Assembly: GCA_903825245.1 (NCBI GenBank)
Contig: CAIJZX010000013.1
Span: 1-61,258 of the forward strand
Reading direction: 5' to 3'
Length of the DNA: 61,258 bases
Source: Candidatus Kerfeldbacteria bacterium
Lineage (GTDB): Bacteria; Patescibacteriota; Patescibacteriia; SBBC01; CAIJZX01
Shown here: piece by piece, positions 13,308 through 43,411 of the stretch
Layout of the letters: every line of letters begins with the position of its first letter
Numbering within the stretch: position 1 is the stretch's first letter
Notes under the pieces: generated by a model
The model's input: only the letters and a program-made list of their open reading frames with translations
What the model was told of the DNA's origin: nothing
Database searches by the model: none
Translations under genes and position numbers: made by a program

Positions 13308-13339
13308 ACGTACCCGGGGGTTTAAACCCCCGGGTACGT
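13308..13339. terminator. 32-base perfect palindrome between convergent genes
   Basis: ACGTACCCGGGGG (13308-13320), TTTAAA, CCCCCGGGTACGT (13327-13339). It lies between topA and the minus-strand gene at 13356, so it probably ends both transcripts, although neither side has a good T-tract. Confidence 0.65.
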
Positions 13340-20402: not shown

Positions 20403-20569
20403 TTGCGAAAGCGGGCGACCTTGTGTCGTCCGTCTTCGCAATTGGGAATCGGGGGTCAAAGCCGACTCGTGCGCCGCGGAGCGGAGAAAGCACAAGCGGC
20501 CGGTTCCGAAGGAGACCCGTACCCTCCGCGGTTCGGGTCGGATGAGGAAGACTCCCTTCTCCGGCACCA
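20403..20569 (+). other. tRNA-Leu trailer hairpin and duplicated tRNA 3' end
   Basis: Directly after the tRNA, an 18-base arm beginning at ATTGCGAA (20401) pairs with 20424-20441 with few mismatches; the CCA lies at its base opposite TTGG. A GC-rich stretch follows with the stem CCGCGGAG/CTCCGCGG. Bases 20550-20564 then repeat the last 15 bases of the tRNA T-arm and acceptor (20383-20397), followed by CACCA. Confidence 0.7.
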
Positions 20570-28993: not shown

Positions 28994-29156
28994 GGGTCTT
29001 TTGCATGACATTGCTCGTGCCAAGAACTCTGGTGTAAAAACTACGCTAAGGAGTCGAAGGGTGCGCCCAACGGAAGCACCCCGGCCCCACAGGGGCGACT
29101 CCCCCACCCGCAACCAGGGTTTTCTCCAAGTCACCGACGTGGCGAGAACCTTGGTT
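28990..29156 (+). other. tRNA-fMet trailer hairpins and duplicated tRNA 3' end
   Basis: An exact 25-bp direct repeat: 28973-28997 (T-arm, acceptor, CCA and four more bases) recurs at 29096-29120. Each copy is followed by its own hairpin starting at ACCAGGGT: about 28990-29033 closing on CTCTGGT, and about 29113-29156 closing on CCTTGGT. Their loops differ. Between them is another hairpin, GGGTGC/GCACCC. Confidence 0.75.
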
Positions 29157-36184: not shown

Positions 36185-36229
36185 GCCCTAAGTATATCAC
36201 GGAAAGCCCACAATTTCTTGAAAACATAG

Positions 36230-36260
36230 AACCCCTCGTCGGGTACTCCGACAAGGGGTT
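36230..36260 (-). terminator. Likely end of the tRNA-Ser transcript
   Basis: AACCCCT, GTCGG, five bases, CCGAC, AGGGGTT: a long stem with small bulges between the tRNA-Ser locus and the nucleotidyltransferase promoter. T-tract modest. Confidence 0.5.
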
Positions 36261-36327
36261 GGGTTATGTGCCAATGCAACCTACTACCGTTTGACCCACG
36301 TGGGTCGGCTCCGATAAAAGATTGTAT

Positions 36328-36460
36328 TGGCGGAGGAGGAGAGACCTGCCTGCCGGCAGGCAGGTTCGCCCAGCGAAGCCGGGTCCGGCTCTGCCGGAAA
36401 CTCTCGATACGGGTTTAACCCCGTATAACAGCCCCGGATCGGAGTCCGGGGCTGCCGCTT
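36328..36460 (-). other. tRNA-Ser(GCT)-like copy with replaced anticodon arm and split T-loop
   Basis: Compared with the intact tRNA at 36501-36594 this copy keeps the base of the anticodon stem (GGCAG/CTGTT), the long variable arm and the T-stem/acceptor 3' side ending in CCA (36328-36330). In place of the anticodon loop stands a perfect hairpin CCCCGGA-CTCCGA-TCCGGGG (36432-36451). The T-loop is opened by about 54 bases including TCCGGCAGAGCCGGA and the palindrome at 36345-36364. The 5' acceptor half is missing. Confidence 0.75.
36345..36364. repeat. CCTGCCT palindrome, copy 1
   Basis: CCTGCCTGCCGGCAGGCAGG, a perfect 20-base palindrome, directly precedes (in tRNA sense) the T-stem of the tRNA-Ser-like copy. 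Related palindromes are at 43477-43496 and, shorter, in the ABC exporter leader near 25145. Confidence 0.75.
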
Positions 36461-36500
36461 AACGGCAACCTTTATTACTAAATTTCACTTAGTGATTTTT

Positions 36501-36594
36501 TGGCGGAGGAGGAGAGATTCGAACTCTCGATACGGGTTTAATCCCGTATAACAGGTTAGCAACCTGCCGCCTTCAGCCACTCGGCCACCCCTCC
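36501..36594 (-). tRNA. tRNA-Ser (anticodon GCT)
   Basis: 94 bases with encoded CCA. Acceptor GGAGGGG/CTCCTCC (one G-U), D-arm GCCGAGTGGCTGAAGGC, anticodon arm GCAGG-TTGCTAA-CCTGT, long variable arm, T-arm GAGAG/CTCTC. Leader and trailer are complementary: AGTGATTTTTTGG before the tRNA pairs with CCAAAAAATCACT, which starts at the CCA, giving 13 extra pairs. Confidence 0.92.
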
Positions 36595-36644
36595 TCCAAA
36601 AAATCACTATTGTTTAGGAACATCTTTGGTTAACGATCTTTGTT

Positions 36645-36908
36645 GGCGGAGGCGGAAGGATTCGCCCGGCTAAGCCGGGCCGGGGTTGCTTTTCGCAATC
36701 CGTCTCGCCTGTTGGCTCGACCCTTCGAGACCCTTTCCCGCGCCAGGGCGGAGGGGGCGAGATTCGAACTCGCGAGACCCTTGCAGGTCTGACGGTTTTC
36801 AAGACCGTTCCCTTCAACCACTCAGGCACCCCTCCGCTCCGGCGCGGTGATATGACCGTCGCTGGAGTTTATCCCGATGAAAATCGGGAGCCACTCAGCC
36901 ACGCCTCC
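36645..36908 (-). other. Broken outer tRNA-Ser enclosing tRNA-Ser(TGA)
   Basis: The 5' fragment (36889-36908) is acceptor GGAGGCG plus D-arm. The matching 3' end (36645-36665) is T-stem CCTTC, acceptor CGCCTCC, G, CCA. The acceptor halves pair perfectly. Between them lie a CCCGAT/ATCGGG hairpin in the D-loop, the complete tRNA-Ser(TGA) where the anticodon arm should be, a piece of variable arm and T-stem (AAGGGTCTCG, GAAGG), and an insert of about 57 bases in the T-loop containing CCCGGCTTAGCCGGG. Confidence 0.75.
36749..36835 (-). tRNA. tRNA-Ser (anticodon TGA)
   Basis: 87 bases to the discriminator G; the next three bases are CCC, so CCA is not encoded. Acceptor GGAGGGG/CCCCTCC, anticodon arm ACGGT-CTTGAAA-ACCGT, variable arm GACCTGCAAGGGTC, T-arm GCGAG/CTCGC. 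Flanks 36836-36847 and 36738-36749 (CCGCGCC/GGCGCGG core) are complementary over 12 positions with one mismatch. Confidence 0.9.
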
Positions 36909-36929
36909 ATTAGTCCGTAAAGCCCGATG

Positions 36930-43026: not shown

Positions 43027-43411
43027 GGAAGCCCCCGCCTGGGCGCCCGTAGCTCAGCCTGGATCCCGTACAACCGCTGCGCGGTCTACGGGGCAAGTGC
43101 TGCATCAGCGAAATATTGTACCTAAAAACCATTCCTAAGTAGCATTTTTTCTGACCTGGGCGCCCGTAGCTCAGCCTGGATAGAGCATCAGCTTGCGGAG
43201 CTGAGGGTCGTAGGTTCAAATCCTGCCGGGCGCACCAGGTCAGAAAAAATCTTGCGGAGCTGAGGGGTCGAGGTGGTCGGCGCAAGCCGAGCAAGTAAAC
43301 TGCTTTACTTGCGACCGCCGAGACGGGCAGCGCGATGTTCCACAGGAACAGCGATGCCCCCCCGGACGTAGGGTTCCAGAGTTTCGTCGGGCGCACCAGG
43401 CGGGGGCTTCC
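43027..43411 (+). other. Broken outer tRNA-Arg enclosing tRNA-Arg(GCG)
   Basis: Outer pieces in order: GCGCCCG acceptor and D-arm (43043-43064); a D-loop insert with the stem CCCGTA/TACGGG; GCATCAG (43111-43117); an insert holding the whole inner tRNA and its flanks; CTTGCGGAGCTGAGGGG (about 43251, anticodon loop and 3' stem); a T-arm insert with GCAAGTAAA/TTTACTTGC; and CGGGCGCACCA (43388-43398). Outer leader 43027-43042 is exactly complementary to trailer 43396-43411 (16 bp). Confidence 0.75.
43160..43237 (+). tRNA. tRNA-Arg (anticodon GCG)
   Basis: 78 bases with encoded CCA. Acceptor GCGCCCG/CGGGCGC, D-arm GCTC/GAGC, anticodon arm TCAGC-TTGCGGA-GCTGA, T-arm GTAGG/CCTGC (one G-U). Leader TTTTTTCTGACCTGG (43145-43159) is exactly complementary to CCAGGTCAGAAAAAA (43235-43249), which starts with the CCA. 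Confidence 0.92.

Follow-up and report, generated by a model that had tools for sequence, protein, structure and literature searches.

Rickettsia palindromic elements and the bacterial REP/BIME sequences are small palindromic repeats without genes of their own, located for the most part within coding frames or in intergenic DNA. The elements reported here are likewise small, gene-less palindromic repeats of a bacterial genome, but they favour the loops of tRNA copies, and no RAYT/Y1 transposase was found in genome G000. The intervening sequences of 23S rRNA are hairpin inserts in terminal loops that leave the base of the helix intact and are cut out, with the host rRNA still working. Hairpins also replace the terminal loops of a structured RNA in the present locus and leave the helix base in place, but here the host is a redundant tRNA copy that has been truncated. 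Pseudogenes of tRNA and tRNA-associated integration scars are partial copies, in many cases 3' halves, that adjoin intact genes, as do the partial copies described here, and to our knowledge neither hairpins in their loops nor nested copies are known from such pseudogenes and scars.

Mitochondrial hairpin repeats, including double hairpin elements, are short, G+C-rich, dispersed and thought to be mobile, have no known function and in one case lie inside an rRNA gene (PMC2800124). The T-loop of the broken tRNA-Ser described below also holds a double hairpin, but the present elements differ from the mitochondrial ones (PMC2800124) in being bacterial, in sitting in loops within copies of tRNA and 5S rRNA genes and in including a type, here called D-type, with a conserved top and extensive covariation. 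In a literature search of open-licence papers, weak as evidence for that reason, no earlier account of these elements in Patescibacteria came up. The analysis favours a family, not described before, of small elements that insert into loops of genes for structured RNAs, and speaks against a functional tRNA mimic. Should the preference for loops prove real, these elements would provide a bacterial example of insertion guided by nucleic-acid structure and would account for the abundance of broken, hairpin-studded copies in tRNA regions; tRNA annotation and copy counts in Patescibacteria would have to allow for loop-invaded copies, and the D-type is a strongly covarying structured element without an Rfam entry.

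The tRNA-Ser locus and its broken copy

The window (the whole stretch of 61,258 nucleotides that was analysed) is a single contig of the genome, 1.30 Mb in 42 contigs, of an uncultured member of the Patescibacteria. Its minus strand carries, in this order, an intact tRNA-Ser(TGA) (36836-36746), an intact tRNA-Ser(GCT) (36501-36594; ARAGORN and Rfam RF00005, 55.9 bits), a broken copy of the latter and a terminator-like hairpin near 36260-36230. Judged from this arrangement, the broken copy appears to sit within a tRNA-Ser transcription unit. The acceptor stem of tRNA-Ser(GCT) is prolonged past the CCA into the flanks, with 14 bp beyond the stem, and the gene is enclosed by a 20-nt inverted repeat (36490-36609, minus strand) that is 95% complementary. 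Intact tRNA-Ser(TGA) is itself surrounded by a second broken tRNA-Ser whose D- and T-loops hold hairpins (36646-36910, minus strand; 5' part 36910-36850, 3' part 36735-36646), and the repeat enclosing this nested gene changes in sequence and keeps its pairing in G002, G006 and G009.

Downstream of the copy lies a trailer of ~115 nt (36221-36335, minus strand), composed of a long hairpin that begins at the tRNA 3' GCCA and the terminator-like hairpin. It is found at 80-98% identity in five genomes up to class level, with three copies in the window's genome, joined to tRNA-Ser 3' ends or to apparent tRNA fossils. This high identity across families suggests horizontal movement. A plasmid search returned short matches only, in the pattern of ordinary tRNA-Ser genes.

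Positions 36457-36328 of the minus strand constitute a second, partial tRNA-Ser(GCT). The original prediction had the base of the anticodon stem, the variable arm, the T-stem and the CCA end retained, and this is borne out: the anticodon-stem 3' strand, variable arm and T-stem 5' strand (36399-36431, minus strand) are 97% identical to nt 41-73 of the tRNA, a 33-nt block with a whole-genome E of 2.2e-9, and the T-stem 3' strand, acceptor 3' strand and CCA (36328-36344, minus strand) are 100% identical to nt 78-94. The predicted replacement of the decoding loop is likewise exact in the sequence. The intact gene reads GCAG-GTTGCTAAC-CTGT, and in the copy the nine anticodon stem-loop bases GTTGCTAAC are swapped for the 20-nt hairpin CCCCGGACTCCGATCCGGGG (36432-36451, minus strand), which has a perfect 7-bp stem (arms CCCCGGA and TCCGGGG) and a 6-base loop and which, joined to the CAG/CTG retained from the anticodon stem, gives a perfect stem of 10 bp. 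Palindromic inserts in the T-loop, also predicted, can be read directly: TTCGAAT has become TT, the 30-nt double hairpin TCCGGCAGAGCCGGACCCGGCTTCGCTGGG (36369-36398, minus strand), CGAA and the 22-nt palindrome ACCTGCCTGCCGGCAGGCAGGT (36344-36365, no strand), whose outer bases overlap the edge of T-loop and T-stem and which is dispersed, with copies of 16-20 nt elsewhere in the same genome. The absence of the 5' half, namely the acceptor 5' strand and the D arm, had been overlooked; 36452-36475 (minus strand) holds the anticodon-stem 5' strand and, beyond it, a small non-tRNA hairpin, TTGCCG-TTAA-GCGGCA, in the place expected for the missing half. The copy carries no D-type element as defined by the model described below.

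It had been proposed that the copy could be a tRNA mimic; transcribed and folded, it would be a tRNA-Ser unable to decode but still bound by EF-Tu or seryl-tRNA synthetase. This theory agrees with the retention of the variable arm, T-stem and CCA strand, with the location of the copy in the tRNA unit ahead of the terminator-like hairpin and with its fold, which is far stronger than that of shuffled sequences (z -5.3). EF-Tu and seryl-tRNA synthetase, however, read a minihelix, which a copy with one acceptor strand cannot present: there is neither a 5' strand nor a D arm upstream of the anticodon stem, making an acceptor stem impossible within the copy, and the T-loop is interrupted. No tRNA was called by ARAGORN at the copy, and the tRNA covariance model gave no match in 36328-36460 even at E <= 1. 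In relatives the hairpin is present in other tRNA copies, and in G001, a genome of the same genus, Ser(GCT) and Ser(TGA) lie 5 nt apart (L039) with no copy beside them, an outcome different from the free drift of the helices in relatives that had been named as a refutation. The missing D arm and 5' acceptor strand, the lack of recognition by ARAGORN or covariance model and the state of G001 make a mimic of this kind very improbable, and the sharing of its inserts with Asn, Thr, Val and Glu copies is contrary to what a serine-specific mimic predicts. As far as the sequence can tell, the copy most likely has no tRNA-like function.

Recurrence of the inserted hairpins

Both inserts of the copy are also found in related genomes, where they occupy loops of broken copies derived from other tRNA isotypes. 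The anticodon 20-mer CCCCGGACTCCGATCCGGGG is found without change in two T-loops, those of an Asn copy in G003 and a Thr copy in G008, as well as inside another hairpin adjoining tRNA-Arg in G003; G132 and G186 contain its 18-base core at sites away from any tRNA copy. Families of the anticodon hairpin and of the double hairpin TCCGGCAGAGCCGGACCCGGCTTCGCTGGG were detected in 5 and 16 of the 380 class genomes, respectively, with reversed-pattern controls of 0 in both cases. The double hairpin is placed between TT and CGA or CAA in the T-loops of Val copies (G035 twice, G128) and an Arg copy (G006); in copies of the Glu and Phe tRNAs it takes positions in the D arm or the anticodon. About half of the double-hairpin contexts that were read are tRNA copies and the rest are not near tRNAs, which counts against a reading in which the elements insert into loops. 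Both inserts occur as dispersed copies in several genomes, as expected of a mobile palindromic element. An origin of single hairpins by template switching was rejected, because it leaves the families shared between genomes unexplained.

The locus is probably best explained as a redundant, 5'-truncated copy of tRNA-Ser(GCT) whose exposed loops were invaded by small palindromic elements, the redundant copy acting as a landing site for mobile hairpins with a preference for loops. Broken copies of many isotypes contain the same families, and a related family of ~100 nt, in their D, anticodon, variable and T loops, and these insertions leave the flanking helices intact.

A structured element of ~100 nt in tRNA and 5S rRNA copies

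The related family, the D-type, was represented by a model (R1) built from six examples picked by eye, one of which lies in the window, within the variable loop of a broken tRNA-Arg(GCG) that surrounds the intact tRNA at 43160-43237 (element at 43265-43366, plus strand; 97.1 bits, E 1.6e-19). R1 matched about 70 places, spread over 29 of the 144 related genomes; the window's genome has 8 copies, and the number of copies per genome ranges from 0 to 15 even within one order. Outside the class the element is rare, being found in 6 of 379 genomes of a draw from the phylum that again included class members. The D-type had no match in Rfam at the gathering score, its loci giving tRNA and sub-threshold matches only, and the whole window searched at the gathering score gave tRNA only.

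Covariation in the D-type is very strong. Among 73 distinct sequences, in an alignment fitted to R1 and hence biased towards its structure, 91.7% of cells are paired compared with 64.4% after shuffling, and 35 of 36 pairs show changes on both sides; shifting the structure by one to three columns abolishes the signal. One hairpin top, AACTGCTT, is nearly invariant. Hairpin caps are C(GNA)G triloops in 20 cases and GNRA in 2, which proves nothing alone, and G-U pairs make up 4.1% of D-type helices and 2.7% of real tRNA helices. The scarcity of G-U was weighed as a sign that the element acts as DNA, an argument then set aside because normal tRNA helices from these genomes contain just as little G-U; the acting molecule may be DNA or RNA.

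The D-type stem contains tandem G-A pairs in a symmetric internal loop (GUCGAG/CGAGAC) that we take to resemble the stem of Y RNA, and YrlA RNAs mimic tRNA, raising the idea of mimics of the YrlA type bound by Ro60. This identity was rejected and has next to no likelihood, since the partner protein Ro60 (TROVE) was not found in G000-G009, the genomes richest in D-type elements, and no YrlA match rose above threshold at D-type loci.

The D-type is concentrated around tRNA genes, 51 of 72 copies lying within 400 nt of an intact tRNA where a rough estimate gives ~4% as expected, and in 49 of these 51 it is on the strand of the nearby tRNA. Filled copies were compared with the adjoining intact tRNA, which serves as a proxy for the empty site in place of strain-level empty alleles. 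Among D-type copies with a same-strand tRNA in the locus, the upstream flank matches that tRNA at at least 9 of 11 positions in 71% (control 6%) and the downstream flank in 53% (control 4%). Where both flanks match, 21 of the 22 copies lie wholly within a loop; assigned by eye from the tRNA sequences, these two-sided cases comprise 15 in the D-loop, three in the variable loop, two in the anticodon loop, one in the T-loop and one from the variable loop to the T arm. A clean case is L184 (G126), where the D-type directly follows the GG of the D-loop in a second, nearly complete tRNA-Thr. Its position in tRNA-Pro(TGG) copies differs between genomes, being the D-loop in G000 but close to the variable loop in G002, which suggests that these insertions arose independently.

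Ordinary decay, with palindromes inserted at random and without loop preference into neutral DNA beside tRNA genes and helices that look conserved because the copies are young, would also yield broken copies with hairpins. The presence of palindromes away from tRNAs fits this explanation, as does the frequent 100% identity of fragments to the neighbouring tRNA, which indicates youth. It is nonetheless quite improbable, as loops make up ~37% of a tRNA and 21 of 22 two-sided insertions in loops correspond to a rough binomial p near 1e-8, and as flank matches to tRNA lie far above the control. The original claim that loops are exchanged while helices are kept, and that this is not random decay, is statistically clear over many tRNA copies.

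The element is also associated with 5S rRNA, which was recognised from its sequence with no model used. A broken 5S rRNA copy that retains the strands of helix I contains a D-type directly after the 3' end of the intact 5S in G000 (L209, 601-697 of contig C27, minus strand) and also in G003, and the D-type structure at this locus is kept between the two genomes through compensatory changes. A Gly locus common to G000 and G001 has flanks that are alike and D-type stems that differ with their pairing kept, a pattern consistent both with selection in place and with exchange for a different member of the family.

These data bear on a further explanation, in which the loop inserts, above all the D-type, are domains of working non-coding RNAs built on a scaffold resembling tRNA or 5S rRNA, which might serve processing or stability, with gene conversion keeping the tRNA parts like their neighbour. 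The covariation and the nearly invariant hairpin top are what it would predict, as are the turnover of stems with structure kept at the orthologous Gly and 5S sites, the 49:2 strand bias and the tRNA-like frequency of G-U. It is less easily reconciled with an element whose location varies by genome and by loop and whose copy number varies so widely within an order; moreover, many host copies are truncated and the tRNA-Ser(GCT) copy lacks the D-type. Covariation between copies is also expected if mobility requires structure, and so suits the mobile and the functional readings alike. On balance a functional RNA is unlikely, though a stronger contender than decay.

In several class genomes R1 also matched a conserved region extending from the T arm of intact tRNA-Leu (GGTTCGAGTCC...CGAGGCGGTGGCTAGACC; L200, L205, L206, L207 and L214), which is probably a different, downstream element. 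Viral carriage of the D-type was considered from 92 stretches that fit a loose pattern and rejected as chance matches, since none of the 80 scanned loci scored with R1.

Broken and nested tRNA copies across the genome

Fragments of intact tRNAs adjoin many tRNAs of the window's genome, including those for Arg, Pro, Ile, Gly, Ala, Met, Leu, Val and Ser, and are often 100% identical to the adjoining gene. In the nested arrangement, the 5' part of a broken copy is followed by the intact gene in a long inverted repeat and then by the 3' part of the broken copy, as seen at Arg(GCG) (43040-43400), Ser(TGA) (36910-36646) and Pro(CGG). Inverted repeats of at least 8 bp extend past the acceptor stem in 16 of 40 tRNAs (mismatched-flank control 6%), and those of at least 12 bp do so in 10 of 40 (control 0.6%). 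At 43040-43410 (plus strand) the intact tRNA-Arg(GCG) lies in the anticodon loop of the broken tRNA-Arg, which has its own outer inverted repeat and inserts in its D, variable and T loops.

Under the preferred explanation of loop invasion, the hairpin elements would be mobile and non-autonomous, and their mobility is suggested by the different positions in tRNA-Pro(TGG) of G000 and G002 together with the copy numbers of 0 to 15 within an order. Their targets may be loops left unpaired when nucleic acid folds, or else short motifs within loops, for example the GG of the D-loop and TTCGA of the T-loop, and only spare tRNA copies would survive as hosts, presumably because the intact gene stays adjacent. 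No reverse transcriptase (PF00078) or Y1 transposase (PF01797; RAYT/Y1) domain was matched in G000, so both were rejected as a present driver in that genome; non-autonomous elements need no enzyme in cis. A bolder proposal, put forward tentatively, is that these gene-less mobile elements form a new class in Patescibacteria that chooses targets by structure, inserting where tRNA and 5S rRNA genes, folded as single-stranded DNA or as RNA, leave loops unpaired, and that creates or exploits spare copies, possibly leaving intact tRNA genes nested in loop-invaded copies of themselves. Loop invasion by itself does not account for the 5' halves nested upstream of intact tRNAs, which call for a further step of duplication or insertion.

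Elsewhere in the window, 3' fragments of tRNA-Met and tRNA-Leu(CAA) lie downstream of the intact genes (29050-29116 and 20550-20569), the tRNA-Met fragment of this pair having a hairpin insert in its T-loop, and a perfect 32-base palindrome, ACGTACCCGGGGGTTTAAACCCCCGGGTACGT, is present at 13308-13339.
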